Shown here: piece by piece, positions 1 to 51,552 of the stretch | Layout of the letters: each line of letters begins with the position of its first letter | How positions within the stretch are numbered: the stretch's first letter is position 1 | Assembly (NCBI RefSeq): GCF_002494345.1 | Contig: NZ_NXNI01000001.1 | Coordinates: 1,302,001 to 1,366,000, forward strand | Origin: Natrinema ejinorense | GTDB taxonomy: Archaea > Halobacteriota > Halobacteria > Halobacteriales > Natrialbaceae | DNA: 64,000 nt | Reading direction: 5' to 3' | The notes under the pieces: generated by a model | Seen by the model: the letters and a program-made list of their open reading frames with translations, nothing else | Databases searched by the model: none | Told to the model about the DNA's origin: nothing | Made by a program: the position numbers and the translations under genes

Positions 1-748
1 CGTTGCCTCCGCTATCGTGTTCCTCGAGCCACTGGTCGTAGGTTTCCGAGTCGACGGCGACGATCGAAGCCGCCATTCGCGAGTGGCCGGCACCACAGAA
101 CTCGGCACAGACGACGTCGTAGCGGCCGGGGTCGGAGACGATCGTTCGAGCGCGAGTGAAATCGCCGGGGAACGCGTCCTGTTTGATCCCCAGATCCGGT
201 ACGAAAAGCGAATGGACGACGTCGTCACTGGTGAGCCAGATCGTCACGTTTTCGTCGGCGGGGATCACGATTTCGTTCTCGGTCGTCACGTTGGAATCGG
301 GATAGGTCGCCTGCCACTCCCACTGATAGCCACGGACGAAGACCTCCTCGTCGCCGCTGTCGGGAAGGTCGTCGAACGAGTCGAGCTCGTCCCGATCGGG
401 GTCCTCGGTAGCGATGGACTGTGATGGCGACACGTAGGGATTGACGAGGACGCTATAGCCCGAGAGGCCGACGAACAGGAGGATGATCGCCGTTGCGACG
501 GTCCAGGTAATCTCGAGGGCGGGGTCCTCCGTGGTCGGCTCGGGCTCGTCGTTGTCGTGGAACTTGACGGCTGCGTAGACCAGGATGATGAGGACGAAGA
601 CGGTGAGCGGGAGGGCGACGTAGAGGAGTTGGTACTCGAGGCCGTCGATGAGGTCGCGGTTTGCCGACTGTGCGGCGACCGTGCCGGTGAGTGCGACGAG
701 ACTCGCCAGCGCCGCGAGCACGATGAGCGTTCGTTGACGCCGACCCAT
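1..748 (-). CDS. coxB: Cytochrome c oxidase subunit II (partial, 3' end outside window)
   Basis: Subunit II of the terminal heme-copper oxidase carries the CuA centre that accepts electrons outside the membrane. The reading frame starts at the ATG at 748 and is open to the window edge. An N-terminal signal-like hydrophobic stretch is followed by two membrane segments (about residues 30-50 and 75-95) and then a periplasm-side cupredoxin domain. The CuA ligand block VVCAEFCGAGHSRM lies near residue 225, with both Cys, Glu, His and Met present. The gene is divergent from coxA, about 220 bases away. A TATA-like box 25-31 bases upstream of the ATG suggests a leaderless transcript. The C-terminus is not visible. 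Confidence 0.95.
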   Translation of the reverse strand, partial: MGRRQRTLIVLAALASLVALTGTVAAQSANRDLIDGLEYQLLYVALPLTVFVLIILVYAAVKFHDNDEPEPTTEDPALEITWTVATAIILLFVGLSGYSVLVNPYVSPSQSIATEDPDRDELDSFDDLPDSGDEEVFVRGYQWEWQATYPDSNVTTENEIVIPADENVTIWLTSDDVVHSLFVPDLGIKQDAFPGDFTRARTIVSDPGRYDVVCAEFCGAGHSRMAASIVAVDSETYDQWLEEHDSGGN

Positions 749-968: not shown

Positions 969-3254
969 ATGAATCGTGCATTCGCGGAGGTCGCATTGTT
1001 TGGGGCTGTCGTCGTCAGTTGTCTGCTGGTCGTCCTGTTCGCACAGCGGTTCCGAGCCGAACCGTCGCCGGATGGTGGCTACGCGACGGGTCGCAGACGG
1101 CAGTTCACTCTCGGCGACGCGAAGGCGGCTGCCGTCCGCTGGACGACGACGACGAATCACCGCGAGATCGGGTTGTTGTACATCGCGTTCGGTACTGTCG
1201 CGGCGATCTGGGGCGGGATCGATGCGATGATGATTCGGACGCATCTGCTGACGCCAGAGGCGAATCTCTGGACGGAACAGACGTACAACGAACTGTTCAC
1301 GATGCATGGCCTGACGATGCTGATCTTTTTCGTGACGCCGGTGTTCTTCGGGATCGGGAACTACTTTCTGCCGTTGCTGATCGGAGCCGACGATATGGCG
1401 TTTCCGCGGCTCAATGCGGTCGGGTTCTGGTTGCTGCCGCCCTCGCTGTTGCTCGCCCGGCTGGGGATCGTCGCGGAAGTAACAGGGGCAGTACTGGCCG
1501 TCGTGGTTCCAAACGACTGGCTGTCGGTTCTGCTCGCGTTTCAGGAGCCGGCGATCGGGTGGACGATGTACCCGCCCTTGTCGCTTGCGCCGAACCCGCA
1601 GACGAACTTCCTCCTGTTGGGGCTCCACCTGAGTGGCATCGCGACGACGATCGGTGGGATCAACTTCATGACGACGGTTATCTACGAGCGCGACGAGTCG
1701 ATCGGCTGGGCGAACCTCGACATCTTCTCGTGGAACATGCTCGTTACGAGCGCGGTCATCCTCTTTGCGTTCCCGCTGCTGGGGACGGCACTGCTCATGT
1801 TGCTGTTCGATCGCAATTTCGGGACGACCTTCTTCGCAGTCGAAGGCGGCGGTCCCATTCTCTGGCAGCACCTGCTCTGGTTCTGGGGGCACCCGGAAGT
1901 GTACATCATCTTCCTGCCGGCCACCGGGTTGATGAGCCTGATCCTGCCGAAGTTCGTCGGCCGCAAGCTGTTCGGATTCAAGTTCATCGTCTATTCGACG
2001 ATCGCGATCGGCGTCCTTTCGTTTAGCGTCTGGGCCCACCACATGTTCGTGACCGGGGTCGACCCTCGCGTCCGGGCGAGTTTCATGGCGACCTCGATCG
2101 CGATCGCCGTCCCCAGCGCGATCAAAGTATTCAACTGGATCACCACGATGTGGAACGGCGACATCAGGCTCGCCGCGCCGACGATCCTCTGTGTCGGCTC
2201 GATCGGACTGTTCATCGTCGGCGGCGTCACTGGCATCTTCCTCGCCGTCATCCCGGTCGACGTCATCTACCACGGCACCTACTACGTAGTCGGCCACTTC
2301 CACCTCATTCTCATGGGAATTATTCCACTCATGATGTTCGCCGCGAGCTACTACTGGTATCCCATGCTTACCGGCCGCATGTACGACCGTCGGCTCGCGA
2401 TCTTCCAATCGTCGCTGCTGGTCGTCGGCTCCGCGCTCACGTTCATGACGCTGATGGCGCTTGGCTTCCTCGAGCTTCCCCGACGATACGCTACCTATCC
2501 CCCGGGGTATTCGGGGCTGCAGATCGTCGCGACCGTCGGTGCGTTCATCATCGGTATCAGCGTCCTCATGTGGCTGTACAATATGCTCTGGTCGTATTTT
2601 CGGGGGGCGCCGGTCGAGACCGCCGACCCCTGGGAACTGAAGGCGACGGAGCAGTTCACACCCGAGTGGCAGTGGTTCGAGGACCGTCTCGAGCGCGAGC
2701 GCGGGGTCCCGCCGAGCGAGCCCGAGGAGGTCCGTCCGTCGTACGTGCCCGCACGGGGCGAGCGACCGCTGTCGCTGTACGGTCGGATCAGGCCGGTCGC
2801 CCAAACCGTCGCGAACGACGCCGGTATCGGTGCGGCTGGGGGGTTCGTCGGAACGATGTTGATGACGGGGGTCCTCCTCGTCGCAGTCGCGCTGGGCGTG
2901 TTCGACCTCGAGTCCATCGCGACCCTCGCGACGTTCGTCGGATTGCCGGCGGACCTCGCGCTCGGATACGGGCTTTTCCTCGTCGGTGGGATGACGGTCT
3001 GGCCGCTCTTGTTCCTCTCGCTGGGCGAGTACCTGCCGGGCGAGCTCACGCTCGTCACCGGGTTGTGGTATGCGACGGTCATCGCGACGGGGTTCGCGCT
3101 CGCCTTCTATACTGGCCAGCCCGGGCTCGAGCTGGTGACGTACCTCATCTTCGTAGTGCTGGCCCACTGGATCTACGGCCTGGGGTTGGCCGGGACGATC
3201 ACCTATCTGGGCGGTCGCCAGCGGCGTCCCTCCACGGAGGACGGGAAGGAATGA
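969..3254 (+). CDS. coxA: Cytochrome c oxidase subunit I with extra C-terminal membrane domain
   Basis: Catalytic subunit (761 aa) that reduces O2 to water and pumps protons. Heme and CuB ligands are visible: His113 (TMHGLTM), His308 and the cross-link Tyr312 in WGHPEVY, His357/358 in AHHMF, and His443/445 in VVGHFH. The D-channel Asp (GADDMAFPRLN, about 142) and Glu310 in GHPE are present, which points to an A-type oxidase. The core ends near residue 560. A second membrane module follows (about 615-750, four helices), which looks like the stand-alone haloarchaeal DUF6789-type proteins. A strong ribosome site, ggaggtga at 952-959, decides the start. The stop overlaps the next ATG (ATGA). Confidence 0.96.
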   Translation: MNRAFAEVALFGAVVVSCLLVVLFAQRFRAEPSPDGGYATGRRRQFTLGDAKAAAVRWTTTTNHREIGLLYIAFGTVAAIWGGIDAMMIRTHLLTPEANLWTEQTYNELFTMHGLTMLIFFVTPVFFGIGNYFLPLLIGADDMAFPRLNAVGFWLLPPSLLLARLGIVAEVTGAVLAVVVPNDWLSVLLAFQEPAIGWTMYPPLSLAPNPQTNFLLLGLHLSGIATTIGGINFMTTVIYERDESIGWANLDIFSWNMLVTSAVILFAFPLLGTALLMLLFDRNFGTTFFAVEGGGPILWQHLLWFWGHPEVYIIFLPATGLMSLILPKFVGRKLFGFKFIVYSTIAIGVLSFSVWAHHMFVTGVDPRVRASFMATSIAIAVPSAIKVFNWITTMWNGDIRLAAPTILCVGSIGLFIVGGVTGIFLAVIPVDVIYHGTYYVVGHFHLILMGIIPLMMFAASYYWYPMLTGRMYDRRLAIFQSSLLVVGSALTFMTLMALGFLELPRRYATYPPGYSGLQIVATVGAFIIGISVLMWLYNMLWSYFRGAPVETADPWELKATEQFTPEWQWFEDRLERERGVPPSEPEEVRPSYVPARGERPLSLYGRIRPVAQTVANDAGIGAAGGFVGTMLMTGVLLVAVALGVFDLESIATLATFVGLPADLALGYGLFLVGGMTVWPLLFLSLGEYLPGELTLVTGLWYATVIATGFALAFYTGQPGLELVTYLIFVVLAHWIYGLGLAGTITYLGGRQRRPSTEDGKE

Positions 3255-7600: not shown

Positions 7601-8540
7601 GGCTGCGTTGAATCACTAGATGGCGTCGGGGAAGGTCAGTAAATCGAAGGAGTTGAAGCGGGAAAATTTGGTTGTCCATGACACAAATCTCCCGCTTCAC
7701 CGAGCGTTGCGTCTCGATTGCACAAAGAGTTACGGGTGAACGAGGCGAATCCGCCGCCCCGACTGGTGGCGGCGGATTCGCCGACTATGCCCTCATTTCG
7801 CTGCATTGCCTCCGGATTTACCTCGATACGTCCTACCGGATGACGATCGATCTGTTGAAGGAAATGCCGCAAATAACAGGGGATATCGGCCTTGACGTGG
7901 CCGATCTCCCCGCTCCATCTACGCTGTGTAAGGCGTTTGATCGGATCGAAATGAGTGTCTGTCGAGTGCTACTGCACCAGTCGGCGCAGTTGCACAACCC
8001 CTCTGAACACGCTGCTATCGACGCAACATTCTACGAACGTGATCGTGCGAGCCGCCACTACTGCCACCGAACCAATTACCGCGTTCAAACGCTCAAAGTT
8101 ACAAAACTCGTCGATACAGCAACGCAAGCTGTTCTCGATCTTCACTGCTCAACGACGTTAGAAGGAAGCGACGCAGACCTCGCCGAGCAGATCGCCCGCC
8201 GGAACGCGGGCGATCTGCGATCCCTTGCCGCTGACAAGGGCTACGATAAGCAAGCGCTCCGCGACCAGCTCCGCAAACTCGACATTCGCCCGCTGATCAA
8301 ACACCGGATCTTCGCTCCCTACGATCACGCTCACAACGCTCGTATTGACGAAGATCGGTACGCTCAGCGATCAATGACTGAAACCGTGAACTCCGCCATC
8401 AAGCGCTCGCTCGGCTACGCCGTGCGAGCGCGTACCTGGTATCGAGAGTTCCGTGAAATTACCCTGATGTGTGTCGTCTATAACATCAAGCGGGCTGTCA
8501 AACAGTGAAATCCACCGCTGTATGGCGATTCAACACAGCC
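7601..8540 (+). mobile_element. Complete insertion sequence, IS5 family, ISH1-type
   Basis: A 940-bp element with terminal inverted repeats: ggctgcgttgaatc at 7601 against ggctgtgttgaatc read inward from 8540, one mismatch in 14. It is flanked by perfect 8-bp duplications (gatcaaag). It carries one transposase gene. An 8-bp duplication together with an IS5-type DDE transposase points to the ISH1 group. Intact ends, duplications and reading frame suggest a recent, probably still competent insertion. Confidence 0.93.
7678..8508 (+). CDS. IS5-family DDE transposase
   Basis: Transposase of 276 aa that catalyses cut-and-paste movement of the surrounding element. The three catalytic acids are visible: Asp in AAIDATFYERD (about 116), Asp in SLAADKGYDKQALRD (about 186) and Glu in SMTETVNSAIKRSLGYAVR (about 239), with the YREF block after it as in IS5 proteins. 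I chose ATG 7678. A TTG two codons upstream is in frame but weak. The gene fills the space between the inverted repeats and shows no frameshift. Confidence 0.93.
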   Translation: MTQISRFTERCVSIAQRVTGERGESAAPTGGGGFADYALISLHCLRIYLDTSYRMTIDLLKEMPQITGDIGLDVADLPAPSTLCKAFDRIEMSVCRVLLHQSAQLHNPSEHAAIDATFYERDRASRHYCHRTNYRVQTLKVTKLVDTATQAVLDLHCSTTLEGSDADLAEQIARRNAGDLRSLAADKGYDKQALRDQLRKLDIRPLIKHRIFAPYDHAHNARIDEDRYAQRSMTETVNSAIKRSLGYAVRARTWYREFREITLMCVVYNIKRAVKQ

Positions 8541-13274: not shown

Positions 13275-13730
13275 ATGACCTACGAACACCTCGATTCGGA
13301 TCTCGTAAACGAACTGCTCAACGACGGTCGGGCGAGCCTCCGCAGCCTCGCCGAAGAACTCGACGTCTCCGTGACCACCGTTTCGAACCACCTCTCGGAT
13401 CTCGAGGAGGAGGGCGTGATCGAGGGCTACACCCCGAAGATCGACTACGATGCGGTCGGTTACGACGTCACCGCCGTCATGCAACTCAAAGCCGAGGGGA
13501 ACGCCCTGCCCGAAATCACGGAGACGCTGAAAGATCACCGCCAGATGATCTCCGTCTACGAGGTCACGGGGGACTACGACGTGATCGCGATCGGGAAGTT
13601 CAAAGACACCGACGACATGAACGATCAGATCAAGATGTTGATCACGGATCCCGACATCAATCAGTCGAATACGAGCATCGTCCTCAACGCGGTCTCGGAA
13701 AACGAGCAGTTCGAACTCGACACGGAGTGA
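13275..13730 (+). CDS. lrp: Lrp/AsnC-family transcription regulator
   Basis: Regulator of 151 aa. The N-terminal winged helix-turn-helix (about 20-50, [20 protein letters not shown]) is followed by the RAM/ligand-binding domain with the [11 protein letters not shown] block (about 98-108). Members bind amino acids and form octamers. This sequence resembles the haloarchaeal Lrp that sits next to glutamine synthetase in other genomes, but glnA is not in this window. It is transcribed alone, with 250 bases of non-coding DNA upstream. Confidence 0.9.
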
Positions 13731-14024: not shown

Positions 14025-14966
14025 ATGGCATACGGTACCAATCCAGAAGATAGATACAGCTACGGGGAGGTAAGCGACGAGGATCGTCGTGAATTCCTGA
14101 AAGCGCTCGGCGTCATCGGGGGTGGCGCCGTCGCCGGAGCGACGTTGCGTGATCTCCGCGCGGAGGTCTCGAGCGGCGCTGCGGGCGGGCTCGCCGAAAT
14201 GGGCGAGGCAGTTCGCGGCGGGTTGACCGGATCCCTCGACGCGGCCCTGTTGAGCGAAGCGGTGACAGCACTCGAGGGGAGCTTCGAACGCCTGCCCCAG
14301 CTCGGGGCGATGGGAGTTCCCGAGCAGGGGGCGTCGGCTTACCAGGAACTGACGACGTCGGCGTGGACGATCAACGATCACCTGTCGGACGCGGGCTTTT
14401 TCGCGAGCGCGGAAGCGAACCTGCCGGCGTTCGAGCCCGCACACATCGAGGAGACGACGCGGCAACTGCTGCACATCGACGCGCTGCCGGCGACGCTTTC
14501 CGAGATCGGGTTCGCGGAGGAAGAACAGACCGCGCTGGTGACCAACATCGTGAACTCGCGCGAGCAGCTCTCGTGGTGGATGGCGACGCCCGACTATCCG
14601 CCCGCTGACGCCGTCGACGACGGTGTCGTCCACGAGTACGTCGCACCGCTCCATCAGCGGGCCGCGGAAGGGTCGCTGCTCTGGATCGACGGACTCGATC
14701 ACTTCCTCTGGCAGCGGGAACCGCTCGTTACCGACGAGATGATCGATCGCGGACTCTGGGACGTCAAGTCGATGCTGGGGGGCTACTACCTGATGGGGTC
14801 GGCCGCTCGTGACCTCGCGGCCGGCGAAATCGCTGACGACCACCTGACGACGCTGACGACCGCCAGTACCGCGGTCATGATCATCGGCCAGGAATTCCTG
14901 ATCAACGACGTCGTCCGGATTACGGACGACAAGCGTGCGCCACGGAACCCGGCGACCACCGACTAA
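14025..14966 (+). CDS. Tat-signal protein paired with the PQQ dehydrogenase
   Basis: Protein of 313 aa whose N-terminus (DRREFLKALGVIGGGAVAG, about 20-39) is a Tat signal. The rest is helical and hydrophilic with no Cys and no recognised domain. The next gene starts 12 bases after its stop and encodes a large quinoprotein without any signal peptide. By analogy with gluconate 2-dehydrogenase subunit 3, a small Tat-bearing partner could carry the quinoprotein across the membrane. This role is inferred from gene order and signal content only. Confidence 0.7.
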   Translation: MAYGTNPEDRYSYGEVSDEDRREFLKALGVIGGGAVAGATLRDLRAEVSSGAAGGLAEMGEAVRGGLTGSLDAALLSEAVTALEGSFERLPQLGAMGVPEQGASAYQELTTSAWTINDHLSDAGFFASAEANLPAFEPAHIEETTRQLLHIDALPATLSEIGFAEEEQTALVTNIVNSREQLSWWMATPDYPPADAVDDGVVHEYVAPLHQRAAEGSLLWIDGLDHFLWQREPLVTDEMIDRGLWDVKSMLGGYYLMGSAARDLAAGEIADDHLTTLTTASTAVMIIGQEFLINDVVRITDDKRAPRNPATTD

Positions 14967-14978
14967 CGGTGATGGCGA

Positions 14979-16856
<1,878 letters not shown>

Positions 16857-16950: not shown

Positions 16951-19098
16951 TTATTCGTCGCTCGTCTCGTTGGCGCTGTCGTCCGCGTCTTGGGCTGCGG
17001 TTTCGTTTTCGACTTCCACGTCCTTCTCCGTCGGTTCGTCGTCCGCTTCCACGTCCTCAGCGGCCGTTTCGTTGTCCGTGTCGGCTTCTGTGTCGTCTTC
17101 GGCTGCCTCGTCGCCGTTCTCCGCCGGGACGAGACGGTGGACAGCCCCCTCGCCCTCGACCGTCGACGTATTGGTCGTCAGGACGTACAGCTCCCCGTCG
17201 GCTCCCTCTCCGAAGCCGTATACGAACCCGGTCGGCCGGCCGTCTGCTGCGGCCTCGCCTTCGACCTGTATCTGCTCGATCGGCCACAGCCCCTCTTGGG
17301 TGGTGCCAGTGGGAGCGTCCGCCGCCTCGTCGGCTTCGGTTTCGTTCCCGCCGTTGCGCTCCTGTTGTTCCTCGTGTAGCTCGTCGCCCCCGTCGTCACT
17401 GATGTTTTCGTCGTCGTCACTGACGTTCTCGCCGTCGTCCTCGGCAGTCGGCGGATCGAGGAACAGGTCCTCGGGACCGCCGTCGCCGTCGTCGGGCCAG
17501 CCCTCCGGGGGCCGGGCGAGAAACAGCGTTCCCGGACTCTCGCCGTCCTGGCTCCAGTCGCCGAAGACGTACGTCCCCTCGAGGTCGTCGATATCGCCGT
17601 CGACGTAGCGGTAGCCGCCGGTGATGGAAACGCCGATCGCCCCGTCACTCTCCTCGGTATCTTCGTCGTCCTCCTCGGCACCGTCGGACTCGAGGATCTC
17701 GAGGTCGTGTGGGTACTCGAGTACCGGATCGAGTAATTCCTCGCCTCCCCTGACGTCGTCGGGCGTGCTGTCGGGACAGTCGTCGGCCGGTTCCGACGGG
17801 GTTTCGGTGCTGAAGCAGTGGGTCCCCTCTTTGACGTTCCAGCTGTAGTTGCCGCCCCGCTGGACGTGATTGACGCTCTCGAAGAGGTTCTGTCCGACGT
17901 CGGCCATCAGGAACTCGCCGTCGTCGGTAAACGACATCCCGCCCCACGGGTTGCGCATCCCCCACGCGTAGTACTCGTCGAGGTGGCCCTCCGCGTCGAC
18001 CAGCGGATTGTCGTCCGGAATCCCGTAGGCGCGTTCGTCGGTCTCGGTATCGACGTCGAGTCGCAGGATGCCACCGAGGAGGTTCTCTTCGGTGTCCTGG
18101 CCGTTTCCGCCCTCGTTTTCGTCGTACCAGTCCTCGACGTGGCCCTCGTCCGCGTCGTTCGCACCGCCACCGTCGCCCGTGGCGACGTAGAGGTAGCCCT
18201 CGGGACCGAACGCGATCGGCCCGGCGTTGTGGTTGAACTGTGGCTCCGGAACCTCGAGGATCGTCCGTTCGGACTCGGGGTCGGCCGTCGAGCGGTCCTC
18301 GTCCGCAGTCGCGAACTCGGAGAGCACGAACGTGTGATCGTACCCCTCGGGCGTTCCCTCCCGCGGCGGCGAGCTATAGCGCACGAAGAACCGGCCGTTG
18401 TCCTCGAACTCGGGGTGGAAGGCGAGCCCGAGCAGTCCCCGTTCGTCGAACTCCTGAAACTCGACGAGCTGGTCCGAGACGTCGAGGAAGGGGTCCTCCT
18501 GCAGGCCGTCCTCGTCGTGCACGTAGATGTATCCGGTCTGATCGACGATGAACCGTCGGTCGGCCTCCTCGTCGGCTACCTGCAACGTTACCGGTGCGGT
18601 CAAGTCGTCGGCGACGGTCTCGAGGCCGACTGTCGGCCCCTCGCCGATGAGCTGGGCGGGTTCCGCGGGTGCCTCGCCGCCGCCGAACTCGATATCGCCG
18701 CGCATCGAGCTGGGATGGGGGCCACAGTAGTATTCGGCCATCGCCTCTTCGGCGGTGAACTCGACCGTCTGGGTATCACCGGTGCTCGAGACGAGCTCCG
18801 TACTCACGAGATCGTTGCCGTCTTCATCCTCGATGTTGAAGTTGTGTGACGCGCCGTCCAGGTTCTCCCAGGTGAGGGTATACTCCTGGCCCGCCTCGAG
18901 CTGGAGGGTCGGGTTCCGTTCGTCGGCGATCGAATCGGGTGACTGACCGATCCAGCCGCTCACTCGGCCGCCGAGTTCGAATTCGCCGGGAAGCGCTTCC
19001 TGTGCGGTCGCCGTCGGTGCGAGACCCGCGATCGCAACTGCTGCGGACGATTGCAGAACGGTCCGCCTCGAAACCCGATTGTCGTCGTTTCGTGTCAT
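16951..19098 (-). CDS. Tat-exported cupredoxin-PQQ sugar dehydrogenase fusion
   Basis: Secreted protein of 715 aa with a Tat signal (VSRRTVLQSSAAVAIAGLA). Residues about 38-140 form a blue-copper domain with ligands His85, Cys125, His128 and Met132 (YYCGPHPSSM). Residues about 155-660 form a soluble PQQ sugar dehydrogenase: GLLGLAFHPEF (His228), GYLYVATGDGG, YAWGMRNPWG, GNYSWNVKEG and YVFGDW. An acidic insertion with NxS/T sites (about 535-600) and an acidic NET-rich tail follow. It should oxidise aldose sugars outside the cell and hand electrons to its own copper. A paralogue is at 49348. It is convergent with the quinoprotein at 14979. Confidence 0.88.
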   Translation of the reverse strand: MTRNDDNRVSRRTVLQSSAAVAIAGLAPTATAQEALPGEFELGGRVSGWIGQSPDSIADERNPTLQLEAGQEYTLTWENLDGASHNFNIEDEDGNDLVSTELVSSTGDTQTVEFTAEEAMAEYYCGPHPSSMRGDIEFGGGEAPAEPAQLIGEGPTVGLETVADDLTAPVTLQVADEEADRRFIVDQTGYIYVHDEDGLQEDPFLDVSDQLVEFQEFDERGLLGLAFHPEFEDNGRFFVRYSSPPREGTPEGYDHTFVLSEFATADEDRSTADPESERTILEVPEPQFNHNAGPIAFGPEGYLYVATGDGGGANDADEGHVEDWYDENEGGNGQDTEENLLGGILRLDVDTETDERAYGIPDDNPLVDAEGHLDEYYAWGMRNPWGGMSFTDDGEFLMADVGQNLFESVNHVQRGGNYSWNVKEGTHCFSTETPSEPADDCPDSTPDDVRGGEELLDPVLEYPHDLEILESDGAEEDDEDTEESDGAIGVSITGGYRYVDGDIDDLEGTYVFGDWSQDGESPGTLFLARPPEGWPDDGDGGPEDLFLDPPTAEDDGENVSDDDENISDDGGDELHEEQQERNGGNETEADEAADAPTGTTQEGLWPIEQIQVEGEAAADGRPTGFVYGFGEGADGELYVLTTNTSTVEGEGAVHRLVPAENGDEAAEDDTEADTDNETAAEDVEADDEPTEKDVEVENETAAQDADDSANETSDE
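17368..17395. repeat. Right arm of the 28-bp inverted repeat
   Basis: Reverse complement of 16400-16427. It lies in the linker of the cupredoxin-PQQ fusion gene, in the same codon phase, and encodes DGGDELHEE again. Confidence 0.9.
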
Positions 19099-19345: not shown

Positions 19346-20401
19346 TCACGCATAGTTCGCGATCCAGTACGCGATGTAGAGTGCGATCAGTACACCGCCG
19401 CCGATTCGGGTGACACGGCCCCGTGCGAGCATGGCGGTCACGACGAGGAGAGAGGCGGCGAAAAACGGCCAGTGCACCGTCATGACGTCCCCGCCCGTCC
19501 GGACCGGATGGAGGAGTGCGATGAGCCCGATGTTCGCAGTCATGTAGAAGACCGTGCTCCCGACGACGTTTCCGACGGCGAGGCTCGGTCGATTCTGCCG
19601 GACCGGTTCCACCGTCAGCGCCAGTTCCTCGATCGAGGCGATGAAGCTCAACACCGTCGCGCCGAAGGCCAGCCCCGAAATACCGAACGCGACGAAGAGC
19701 CCCTCGGCACCGACGACCGTAATGCCGGAGCCGATCGTCAACCCGATCGTCGCGAGAACGGCCACGCCCAGATTGAAGCGACCGCTTCGATGCTCGAACG
19801 ACGGGACGAGTTCGTCGAGATCGAAATCCGAGTCCTCCCCTCGTCCCCGTTGCACACGCAGCTCGCCGCCGCCATCGGGCGCTCCGTCAGCCCCCTCGAG
19901 GTCGACGACCTCCGCAACCTCCATCGAGCGTAAATACGCTCTTTCGGAGCGACGCTCGTGCCAGAAGATGAACGCGAGCAGCGGGACGAACAGAGCCAGC
20001 AGCGCCGTGCCCTCGAGCGGATCGATCGCCCCGTCGATCGAGGCCGCGAACGCGGGGATGGCCACGGACGCGAGCATGAGCAGATATACCTGCGGGACGT
20101 CCATCCGGAACGGGACGAGAATCCCCGCGAGCCCGACGGCGACGGCCAGGACGAACAGCGATTCCCCGAACACCGTTCCGAGTGCGAGACCCGGTAGGGC
20201 GGCGGACGCCGCAGTCACGCCGAGGACGGCGTTCTCGAGGTCGACTCCGGCCAGTACGACCGCGAGAACGAACCCGGAGATGCCAAGCGAGACGGCGCTC
20301 TCGGCGACGGCCTCGATGAAGACCTCGACACACCAGATCACCAGGACGATCCCGACGAGAAACAGGGCGAGGAAGGCGACCGGCGAACTCGGAACGACCA
20401 T
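19346..20401 (-). CDS. Sodium/calcium exchanger-family (CaCA) transporter
   Basis: Membrane antiporter of 351 aa with about ten helices in two inverted repeats. The family alpha-repeats are recognisable (GVDLENAVLGVTAASAALPG in repeat 1 and ATVLSFIASIEELAL in repeat 2). The acidic ligand positions are present, although the repeats are divergent. A cytoplasmic acidic loop (about 170-215) separates the halves. I chose ATG 20401. A longer frame to 20473 adds a basic segment unlike a transporter N-terminus. Ion specificity is unknown. Confidence 0.8.
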   Translation of the reverse strand: MVVPSSPVAFLALFLVGIVLVIWCVEVFIEAVAESAVSLGISGFVLAVVLAGVDLENAVLGVTAASAALPGLALGTVFGESLFVLAVAVGLAGILVPFRMDVPQVYLLMLASVAIPAFAASIDGAIDPLEGTALLALFVPLLAFIFWHERRSERAYLRSMEVAEVVDLEGADGAPDGGGELRVQRGRGEDSDFDLDELVPSFEHRSGRFNLGVAVLATIGLTIGSGITVVGAEGLFVAFGISGLAFGATVLSFIASIEELALTVEPVRQNRPSLAVGNVVGSTVFYMTANIGLIALLHPVRTGGDVMTVHWPFFAASLLVVTAMLARGRVTRIGGGVLIALYIAYWIANYA

Positions 20402-20654
20402 GGCCGAGAACTCTACACCGCCGTCGCACTTAATCACCGGCTGCGGTCGCGACCGGGACCGATGGCCGCTCACGGGTCGATCTCTGCACGCGAGCGCGGA
20501 GTCCGCGAGCGTCGGCCGACTGGCCCTGGAAAAGGGACGGCGAGCGCTTCCCGTGTGGGGTCCGTACTGCGGTCAGGTGTGGCGATCGAACACTCGCTAC
20601 CTGTAACTCGCATCATCACAACACGTATGGCCTGGTCGATGCTCTTAGACGCGC

Positions 20655-49347: not shown

Positions 49348-51552
49348 ATGAGCGAGCAACCCGCCGAGCGGTCGATCCCGGTCGGGGAATCATCCCGCAA
49401 CTATGCGTCCCGCCGTCGCGTGTTACGGGCCGCCGCCGCTGCGGGCGGGGTCGTCGGGCTGAGCACCGCTGCGTTCGCCCAGGAGGCCGAAACGATCGAA
49501 CTCGGGGGTGAGACGAGCGGCTGGCAAGGCGTCGCACCCGAGGCGATCGCGGACGAGACGAACCCGACGCTGGAACTCGAGGAGGGGACCACGTACGAAC
49601 TCACGTGGGAGAACCTCGACGGTATCGCGCACAATATGGTCATCGTCGACGGCGAGGGCGAAGCACTCGAGCGGACCGAACTCATGAGCGAGCAGGGCGA
49701 GACCCAGACGCTCGAGTTCGAGGCCACGAGCGAGATGGCCGAGTACTACTGTGAGCCCCATCGGGCGACGATGCGCGGAGACGTGTCGGTCGGCGGCGGG
49801 AACGGGGCCCAGGAGCAGCCGGAAGCCGGCGATTCGGAGGGGTTCTTCCAGCCGGGGGCGGAGATCGGCGTCCGGACGATCGCGGAGGGGATGACCGCGC
49901 CGACGGACATGGCAGTTGCCGACGAGGAGCGAGACCGGTACTTCGTCGCGGATCAGACGGGTGAGCTCTGGGTCGTCACCGACGACGGGCTCCGGGACGA
50001 GCCGTTCCTCGACGTCAGCGATCGGCTCGTCGAACTCGGGACGTTCGAGGGAGCGTACGCCGACCCGAATCAGGACTACGACGAACGGGGGTTGCTCGGC
50101 GTCGAGTTCCATCCCGACTTCGCGGAGAACGGACAGTTCTACGTTCACTACAGCGCGCCACCTAACGACGAGACGCCCGACGGGTGGAGTCACGTCGAGG
50201 TCGTCTCGGAGTTCCAGGCCACCGACGAGACGAGTCAGGGCGACCCCGAGTCGGAACGAGTGCTCCTGGAGTTCCAGAAGCCACAGTACAACCACGACGC
50301 CGGGCCGATGGCGTTCGGGCCCGACGGCTACCTCTACGTTCCGATGGGCGACGGCGGCGGTGCGAACGATGATATGGAGGGACACGTCGACGACTGGTAC
50401 GACGGAAACGACGGCGGGAACGGCCAGGACGTCAGCGAGAACCTGCTCGGAAGCATCCTTCGAATCGACGTCGACAGTGAGGGAACGGACCAGCCGTACG
50501 GCATCCCTGAAGATAACCCACTGGTAGACGAGGACGACGCGCTCGACGAACACTACGCGTGGGGCTTTCGGAACCCGTTTGGCATCTCGTTCGACAGCGA
50601 CGGTCGACTGTTCGTCGCCGACGCCGGTCAGGACCTGTTCGAAGAGGCAAACCTCGTCGAGGCGGGGGGCAACTACGGCTGGAACGTCAAAGAGGGGACC
50701 CACTGCTTCAGCACGGACAGTCCGAGCCAGCCGCCGGCGGAGTGCCCGGATTCGGCACCCGAGGACGCGCCGTACAACGGTCAGGAACTCCAGGATCCGA
50801 TCGTCGAGTATCCCCACATCTATCGGGAGGAGATGGTCGGCATCGTGATCGTTGGCGGGCACGTCTACGAAGCCGGGCAAATCGACGGCCTCGAGGGGAA
50901 GTACGTCTTCGGTGATTGGACGTCCGATCCGTCCCGCGAAGAGCCGGCAGGGCGACTCCTCGCCGCCGCCGATCCTGACGGCGGCGGAGCTGAACCAATG
51001 GCTGGTGCGGACGGCGGGAACGAGACAGCAGAGATGAACGAGACTGTCGATGCGAACGAGACGGCAGGAATGAATGAAACTGTCGGCGGGAACGAGACGG
51101 CGGAGATGAACGAGACGGCCGACGGGAACGAAACCGCGACCGAGGCGGGTTCGGACGGCGACCAACAGGTGGTTCCGCGGGACGAACTCTGGGAGATGGA
51201 AGAATTGCAGGTCGCAGGCACCGAGGACGGATCCTTCCCGTACTTCGTCCGCATGTTCGGTCAGGACGACGAGGGGAACGTGTACGTGCTCGCGAACCGG
51301 GAGGGCACTCCGACGGGCGACACCGGTGCGGTCATGCGGATCGTCCCACCGGGCGAGGGTGACTCCCTCTCGATGCCCGAGGGGGCGGCGGGAACCCCAG
51401 CCGAGGAGCAGGAACCCGACGAGAACGCGACGGCGGACACTCAGGACGAACCGATCGCCGACGGCAACGAGACGGCGGCCAACGAAACGGAAACCGAGAC
51501 CGGTACGAACGAGACCGCGGCCGACGACAACCAGACGGCCGACGACGCGTAA
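49348..51552 (+). CDS. Tat-exported cupredoxin-PQQ sugar dehydrogenase fusion (paralogue)
   Basis: Secreted protein of 734 aa, similar throughout to the product of 16951-19098. Tat signal YASRRRVLRAAAAAGGVVGL, then a blue-copper domain with His95, Cys135, His138 and Met142 (YYCEPHRATM), then the PQQ sugar dehydrogenase part (GLLGVEFHPDF, GYLYVPMGDGG, YAWGFRNPFG and YVFGDW). A linker at about 553-600 has seven closely spaced Asn-Glu-Thr sites, and the C-terminal tail has more, so heavy N-glycosylation is likely. It sits between the methylmalonyl-CoA mutase and epimerase genes. Confidence 0.88.
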   Translation: MSEQPAERSIPVGESSRNYASRRRVLRAAAAAGGVVGLSTAAFAQEAETIELGGETSGWQGVAPEAIADETNPTLELEEGTTYELTWENLDGIAHNMVIVDGEGEALERTELMSEQGETQTLEFEATSEMAEYYCEPHRATMRGDVSVGGGNGAQEQPEAGDSEGFFQPGAEIGVRTIAEGMTAPTDMAVADEERDRYFVADQTGELWVVTDDGLRDEPFLDVSDRLVELGTFEGAYADPNQDYDERGLLGVEFHPDFAENGQFYVHYSAPPNDETPDGWSHVEVVSEFQATDETSQGDPESERVLLEFQKPQYNHDAGPMAFGPDGYLYVPMGDGGGANDDMEGHVDDWYDGNDGGNGQDVSENLLGSILRIDVDSEGTDQPYGIPEDNPLVDEDDALDEHYAWGFRNPFGISFDSDGRLFVADAGQDLFEEANLVEAGGNYGWNVKEGTHCFSTDSPSQPPAECPDSAPEDAPYNGQELQDPIVEYPHIYREEMVGIVIVGGHVYEAGQIDGLEGKYVFGDWTSDPSREEPAGRLLAAADPDGGGAEPMAGADGGNETAEMNETVDANETAGMNETVGGNETAEMNETADGNETATEAGSDGDQQVVPRDELWEMEELQVAGTEDGSFPYFVRMFGQDDEGNVYVLANREGTPTGDTGAVMRIVPPGEGDSLSMPEGAAGTPAEEQEPDENATADTQDEPIADGNETAANETETETGTNETAADDNQTADDA

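Follow-up and report, generated by a model that had tools for sequence, protein, structure and literature searches.

A haloarchaeal gene within a window of 64,000 nucleotides (the whole stretch of DNA that was analysed, part of the main contig of a 4.48 Mb genome, G000) encodes a fusion of a type-1 copper domain to a propeller of the GSDH family, and this copper-propeller layout is real and conserved. The reading that is tentatively preferred here, at somewhat short of an even chance, is that the fusion is a Tat-exported oxidoreductase that would pass its electrons through the tethered copper site and on to halocyanins or an oxidase. The first-pass annotation had described a blue-copper domain and a PQQ sugar dehydrogenase in one exported chain. 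Pfam matches and the sequence bear out the pairing of a blue-copper domain with a GSDH-family propeller in a single 715-aa chain with a Tat signal; the second half of the description, a PQQ sugar dehydrogenase of the established type, is not supported, because the residues that clamp PQQ are lost, the C-terminal half of the propeller matches only HHIP, and pqqC was not found in this genome or in 292 genomes of the class.

Export of the fusion is predicted from its Tat signal. The Pfam match to this signal is weak (residues 9-27 of the 715-aa fusion), cleavage probably falls near ATAQ/E, and neither a lipobox nor a membrane anchor was seen in this region (residues 1-33). The copper domain matches Copper-bind PF00127 over residues 66-137 with 32.3 bits (cut-off 21.2). 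As the first-pass annotation had stated, it has all four copper ligands, His85, Cys125, His128 and Met132, and it is predicted to bind copper. The His-Cys-His-Met set is found in 49/49 non-redundant copper-bearing homologues, although the scan located the domain by that same pattern. The propeller matches GSDH PF07995 over residues 169-428 with 84.2 bits (cut-off 25). A chance or artefact open frame at 16951-19098 has been ruled out: relatives from many genera span the whole chain, at ~40-70% identity over both domains. Positions of these and the other features are collected in the table.

Table. Features of the copper-propeller fusion, its paralogue and their surroundings (window positions, except for sequences with L numbers)
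Feature	Position	Strand	Basis
COX2 (CuA), window start	59-289	-	
COX1 fused to DUF6789, window start	969-3254	+	
Transposase gene between oxidase genes and fusion	7672-8508		
Lrp/AsnC regulator, edge of conserved module	13275..13730	+	
313-aa Tat-signal protein, family unassigned, directly upstream of dehydrogenase	14025..14966	+	
Convergent partner, eight-bladed quinoprotein-type alcohol dehydrogenase	14979..16856	+	Pfam, alignment
Shared segment GGDELHEE[QE]QE, inverted repeat	16400-16468 and 17327-17395	+ and -	
Fusion gene, 715 aa: Tat signal, type-1 copper domain, HHIP-like GSDH propeller, acidic tail	16951..19098	-	ORF from ATG, Pfam
Acidic C-terminal tail with N-x-T sequons	16954..17115	-	sequence
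Six-bladed propeller, residues 153-661, HHIP and Asd nearest	17116..18642	-	profile and structure comparison
Phe625-Val626-Tyr627, at sGDH Arg406-x-Arg408 positions	17218..17226	-	alignment to sGDH and E. coli YliI
Acidic low-confidence insert between last blades, residues ~540-603, contains GGDELHEEQQE	17290..17481	-	model, sequence
Ser516, at position of PQQ-carboxylate ligand Lys377	17551..17553	-	alignment to sGDH and E. coli YliI
Arg382-Asn383-Pro384-Trp385, equivalent to sGDH Arg228, Asn229, Pro230, Gln231	17944..17955	-	alignment
His290, equivalent to sGDH catalytic His144, invariant 56/56	18229..18231	-	alignment
Halocyanin-like cupredoxin domain, residues 37-143	18670..18990	-	PF00127; plastocyanin/amicyanin/NirK matches
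Copper ligands Cys125, His128, Met132 (CGPHPSSM)	18703..18726	-	ligand pattern, homologues
Copper ligand His85	18844..18846	-	ligand pattern, homologues
Tat signal, RR motif, residues 1-33	19000..19098	-	sequence; PF10518 weak
Na/Ca exchanger, upstream of fusion, conserved in closer loci	19346..20473	-	
Paralogue B, second fusion, 734 aa, both Pfam domains, Arg408 equivalent kept	49348..51552	+	sequence comparison
Conserved neighbours of paralogue B: methylmalonyl-CoA-mutase-like gene (named by eye)	47490		
Conserved neighbours of paralogue B: three further genes	52284, 53818, 54709		
Fusion with copper domain inside propeller, L020	5335-7989		
Fusion with copper domain inside propeller, L022	5551-7854		
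Fusions with copper domain inside propeller, L068, L071, L083			

The domain pair, which the first-pass annotation had proposed to seek in other taxa, proved widespread in haloarchaea. Propeller matches at E 1e-50 or better were obtained in 96 of the 194 sampled genomes of the class, and matches that include the copper part come from at least seven family groups (f1, f2, f3, f4, f6, f8, f10); a scan by genome contig gave 16 relatives, nearly all of them Natrialbaceae. The fusion is also carried by plasmids of Natrinema, Halobaculum, Halostagnicola and Haladaptatus, annotated as 'plastocyanin' or 'PQQ-dependent sugar dehydrogenase'. (In Haladaptatus halobius the copy on the plasmid, L089 5956-7791, is annotated as two genes but is one fusion interrupted by an in-frame stop.) The layout itself is already present in databases under these existing annotations, and no description of a copper-propeller fusion was found in the literature searched, a search that most subscription journals lay beyond. 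Bacteria were covered through plasmids, where the propeller alone aligned among the matches listed. A separate open frame of 1039 residues in L057 (1923-5039) has a GSDH propeller at residues 658-923 and no copper domain; Pfam recognises nothing in the part upstream of the propeller, which may be read-through of non-coding sequence.

The window itself contains a second fusion, paralogue B, which the first-pass annotation did not mention and which is 52% identical to the fusion at 16951-19098; a third propeller in the same genome is without a copper domain. The pairing also occurs in a second layout. In five sequences, which form one clade (100/100) inside the family, the copper domain is not N-terminal but lies within the propeller, after blade 1. 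In the copper-domain tree the inserted domain groups with free halocyanins (support 85), with too few columns to separate a second capture from a relocation. Because copper domain and propeller are paired in two layouts, it can be argued that the two domains work together.

Among solved structures, HHIP (3ho4, 7pgm) is the best match to the propeller by both sequence and structure, C-terminal blades included. HHIP is an animal signalling antagonist that binds Hedgehog, a function specific to animals that one would not look for in archaea; it is not an enzyme and does not use PQQ. In the profile comparison it reached 1.3e-45, ahead of sGDH (2.5e-18) and Asd (1.8e-14), and it was the sole match to the C-terminal half of the propeller (2.4e-11), for which no quinoprotein match appeared up to E = 10. 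The AlphaFold model of the fusion has moderate confidence values, with a mean pLDDT of 63.8 and a pTM of 0.60, and the copper-to-propeller distance is not readable from it; its propeller fold gives Z 33 with HHIP (range 29-33), Z 31 with Asd, Z 24 with sGDH and Z 21-22 with the AA12 pyranose dehydrogenase. The lead of HHIP by sequence, and its tie or lead by structure, speak for an alternative in which the propeller is a non-catalytic, HHIP-like binding domain (for a polymer, a metal or a cell-surface partner protein) and the copper domain a tethered carrier or copper store. The lost clamp, the failure to find PQQ synthesis and a very acidic tail with N-x-T sequons fit this alternative as well. 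HHIP, however, lacks a copper domain and has GLHDP in place of the Arg/Asn region, which indicates that Arg/Asn are not needed for the fold, yet Arg382/Asn383 are invariant in the haloarchaeal family. A propeller that only binds would leave these conserved catalytic-face residues, and the lasting attachment to a redox domain, seen in two layouts, unexplained, and this explanation is considered unlikely.

The residues of the cofactor site give a divided answer. The first-pass annotation had seen PQQ dehydrogenase motifs in the chain, a view exposed to any loss of PQQ-contacting residues, and that loss is partial: the catalytic His (His290) and the quinone-facing Arg382/Asn383 are present and invariant, all three in 56/56 homologues, but the clamp Lys377-Arg406-Arg408 has become Ser516-Phe625-Tyr627. 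Thus the fusion shares with sGDH (1c9u) and Asd (E. coli YliI 2g8s, Pyrobaculum 3a9g) the six-bladed GSDH propeller and the equivalents of His144, Arg228 and Asn229; it differs from them in the loss of Lys377, Arg406 and Arg408, in the changes of Gln231 to Trp and Pro248 to Gln, in its extra copper domain and in being nearer to HHIP. Most of these changes extend to the family. Among 56 homologues an equivalent of Lys377 is kept in 0/56, of Arg406 in 1/56 and of Arg408 in 24/56; the last is Tyr627 in the fusion at 16951-19098 and Arg in paralogue B. The Gln231 position holds Trp, Phe or Tyr (Trp385 in the fusion). In the Gly247-Pro248 calcium/PQQ loop the Gly is retained and Pro248 is Gln in 55/56 homologues, but residue identity need not matter at this site because the ligands there are main-chain carbonyls. 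All three clamp residues are present in E. coli YliI, and the haloarchaeal Asd-type protein L085 retains the R-L-R motif. (The cut-off of NCBIfam TIGR03606, 434.55 bits, was dropped as a test of PQQ use; the fusion scores 66.5 bits, but E. coli Asd itself reaches just 109.6.)

In sGDH the C-7 carboxylate of PQQ has Lys377 as its partner, and arginines close to the C-terminus, Arg408 among them, contribute to PQQ binding as well (PMC6881789). The AA12 pyranose dehydrogenase of Coprinopsis cinerea, which joins a cytochrome b to a PQQ propeller, lacks part of this sGDH clamp, as the fusion does; part of the sGDH residue set is replaced, and PQQ is still bound (PMC6881789, PMC4133262). It too combines a PQQ-family propeller with a one-electron carrier, but the carrier is haem b rather than copper, the PQQ residues are Arg273, Arg621 and His560, and sequence similarity to the fusion is low; the AA12 ligands Arg273, Arg621, His539 and His560 are not placeable on the fusion, the sequences being too distant. 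Because AA12 binds PQQ via other residues, and because His290, Arg382 and Asn383 do not vary among the homologues, loss of the clamp weakens the PQQ reading without excluding it.

A second line of evidence concerns the supply of PQQ. The pqqC model gave no match in the fusion's own genome and none above the model cut-off in 292 haloarchaeal genomes; S. meliloti pSymB, the positive control for this search, gave 428 bits. For pqqB the best score in the own genome was 39 bits (cut-off 245), versus 390 in the control, and the pqqE search was uninformative, as radical-SAM relatives match in every control genome. Scavenging of PQQ is common, in that many bacteria use PQQ without making it (PMC12124388), and an exported fusion could therefore still take PQQ from outside. 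These observations bear directly on the alternative of a true PQQ-dependent sugar (aldose) dehydrogenase, joined in one chain to the acceptor of its electrons and supplied with scavenged PQQ. Its membership of the GSDH family, the invariant equivalents of His, Arg228 and Asn229, the Arg408 equivalent retained in paralogue B, and the precedents of AA12 enzymes that bind PQQ without Lys377 (PMC6881789) and of bacteria living on PQQ they cannot make (PMC12124388) are all what this alternative would expect. They are set against the loss of Lys377, Arg406 and, in this copy, Arg408, the Gln at the calcium-site Pro248 position in 55/56, a C-terminal half that resembles HHIP only and the absence of pqqC from 292 haloarchaea, while the one pointer to sugar as the substrate is the family name. 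The label 'PQQ sugar dehydrogenase' is accordingly unproven, because most of the residues that grip PQQ are gone and the sampled members of the class have no pqqC; the alternative built on scavenged PQQ is unlikely.

The surroundings of the gene add a further candidate partner. Convergent to the fusion lies a quinoprotein-type alcohol dehydrogenase (14979-16856) that retains Glu (GEFGVSG), Asn (NPGPW), and Asp and Asp+2 (PHDWWDYD); these three motifs are in all dehydrogenase orthologues read (NPAPW replacing NPGPW in one). An assignment of this dehydrogenase as one without a catalytic Asp was wrong, since RPGDN is not the site and the catalytic Asp in PHDxWD is kept. The DYD motif is typical of lanthanide enzymes. 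An adjacent Cys-Cys pair is absent at the aligned place, as it is in thaumarchaeal DYD enzymes (PMC7300363). The dehydrogenase has no signal peptide of its own, and therefore co-export with the adjacent Tat-signal partner (14025-14966) is a reasonable guess. The module, whole or in its core, is found in Natrinema, Natrialba, Halopiger and Halostagnicola. The fusion type of 16951-19098 is present in 12 genomes of the 194-genome sample, and in 10/12 a close dehydrogenase orthologue (at least 63% over most of its length) adjoins it, one of the ten being split over two frames; of the other two, one has a partner remnant and one none. In these cases (L095 in G096; L036/L096 in G193) the fusion is retained, but the dehydrogenase and the Tat-signal partner are lost or degraded. 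No genome of the sample was found to have an orthologue of the adjacent type without the fusion, and some genomes encode less closely related dehydrogenase homologues (35-66%) at other places.

This association raises the possibility that the fusion serves above all to accept electrons from the DYD-type dehydrogenase, doing the job of cytochrome cL, with the propeller as a docking part. The adjacency in 10/12 genomes with no such orthologue lacking the fusion, the metal-ligand and catalytic Asp motifs kept in the dehydrogenase, and the fact that no haem protein lies within the module would agree with such a role. Yet one genome with the fusion has lost the partner, another has only its remnant, and many other fusions, including paralogue B, are without such a neighbour. 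Because two genomes have the fusion without an intact partner, and because the neighbours of paralogue B differ, the fusion must be capable of functioning by itself, and a role confined mainly to accepting electrons from this dehydrogenase is very unlikely. The CuA oxidase genes lie at the far end of the window, roughly 14-19 kb from the fusion and in another unit, behind a transposase gene; there is therefore no operon link with the fusion, and the window's CuA oxidase is only a possibility as the electron acceptor.

The fusion and the convergent dehydrogenase also share part of their acidic inserts, as near-identical DNA in the same reading frame (35/36 bases). The segment has no further occurrence in the own genome. 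Two Natrialba species (L010, L012) exhibit the same sharing with their own lineage-specific sequence, NGGD[DE]LHAPEED (36/40 and 41/45 bases), whereas fusion-dehydrogenase pairs taken from different loci show mostly background similarity. As the simplest reading, this pattern points to gene conversion between the two neighbours, occurring separately by lineage.

Several known systems resemble parts of what is proposed for the fusion. The pairing of a dehydrogenase-type propeller with an electron carrier is of a kind already known. The type II quinohaemoprotein alcohol dehydrogenase is eight-bladed. Its acceptor is azurin (PMC8348568), which provides a transfer from quinoprotein to blue copper like that proposed for the fusion, but the enzyme carries its own haem c domain, and azurin is not part of the same chain. 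In haloarchaea, halocyanins are predicted to carry electrons to the oxidase, and one is fused to the oxidase subunit CbaD (PMC3403918); this, like the fusion, unites a type-1 copper carrier with a redox partner, but CbaD is an oxidase subunit rather than a dehydrogenase-like propeller. Thaumarchaeal PQQ and glucose/sorbosone dehydrogenases are proposed to feed blue copper without cytochrome c, and dark-ocean thaumarchaea are said to encode PQQ synthase (PMC7300363, PMC6657660). The thaumarchaeal DYD motif without a Cys-Cys pair is as in the partner at 14979-16856, but the thaumarchaeal enzymes and carriers are described as separate proteins. With the thaumarchaeal proposal and the halocyanins as parallels, blue copper is a reasonable idea for the acceptor of a dehydrogenase that has no cytochrome c to pass electrons to.

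For the putative cofactor, substrate, direction of electron flow and final acceptor, the following mechanism may be suggested under the preferred oxidoreductase reading. The fusion would be a soluble, Tat-exported two-domain redox protein of haloarchaea, whose HHIP-like GSDH propeller may oxidise a small organic substrate at the face formed by His290, Arg382 and Asn383. The bound cofactor would most likely be of quinone type, either PQQ acquired from the surroundings or some other compound that the propeller would hold with no carboxylate clamp of the usual kind. The type-1 copper domain tethered to the propeller would take up the electrons and hand them on, either to halocyanins or to a CuA-type oxidase. 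In bacteria, the role of such a copper relay is filled by cytochrome c.

Taken together, the oxidoreductase reading is favoured because both domains are in one chain in many haloarchaeal families, because His-Cys-His-Met is found in 49/49 and the His and Arg/Asn in 56/56 homologues, because the fold matches Asd and HHIP at Z 31-33, because the gene shares a module with a quinoprotein-type dehydrogenase, and because azurin, the thaumarchaeal enzymes and CbaD provide precedents. It is weakened by the family-wide loss of Lys377 and Arg406 and the loss of Arg408 here, by the lack of pqqC, by HHIP as nearest solved relative and by a model of moderate confidence. A more specific proposal, somewhat doubtful as it stands, is that, within an archaeal class that has no known PQQ synthesis, a copper-wired propeller family has kept the His/Arg/Asn triad and dropped the clamp, and would either use another cofactor or bind PQQ by a novel mode, its built-in copper taking the place of cytochrome c as the electron outlet.

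The finding matters beyond this one gene. Haloarchaea have many genes annotated as PQQ enzymes, yet no pqqC in the 292 sampled genomes; either they depend on PQQ from organisms around them, or a large group of the proteins so annotated works with something other than PQQ. The fusion makes this cofactor question testable in a single protein, in which the copper site would be a visible read-out of electron delivery by the propeller, and paralogues that differ in whether they keep the Arg408 equivalent permit a direct comparison. If the oxidoreductase reading is true, the fusion would connect an extracellular dehydrogenase with a respiratory chain by a path free of cytochrome.
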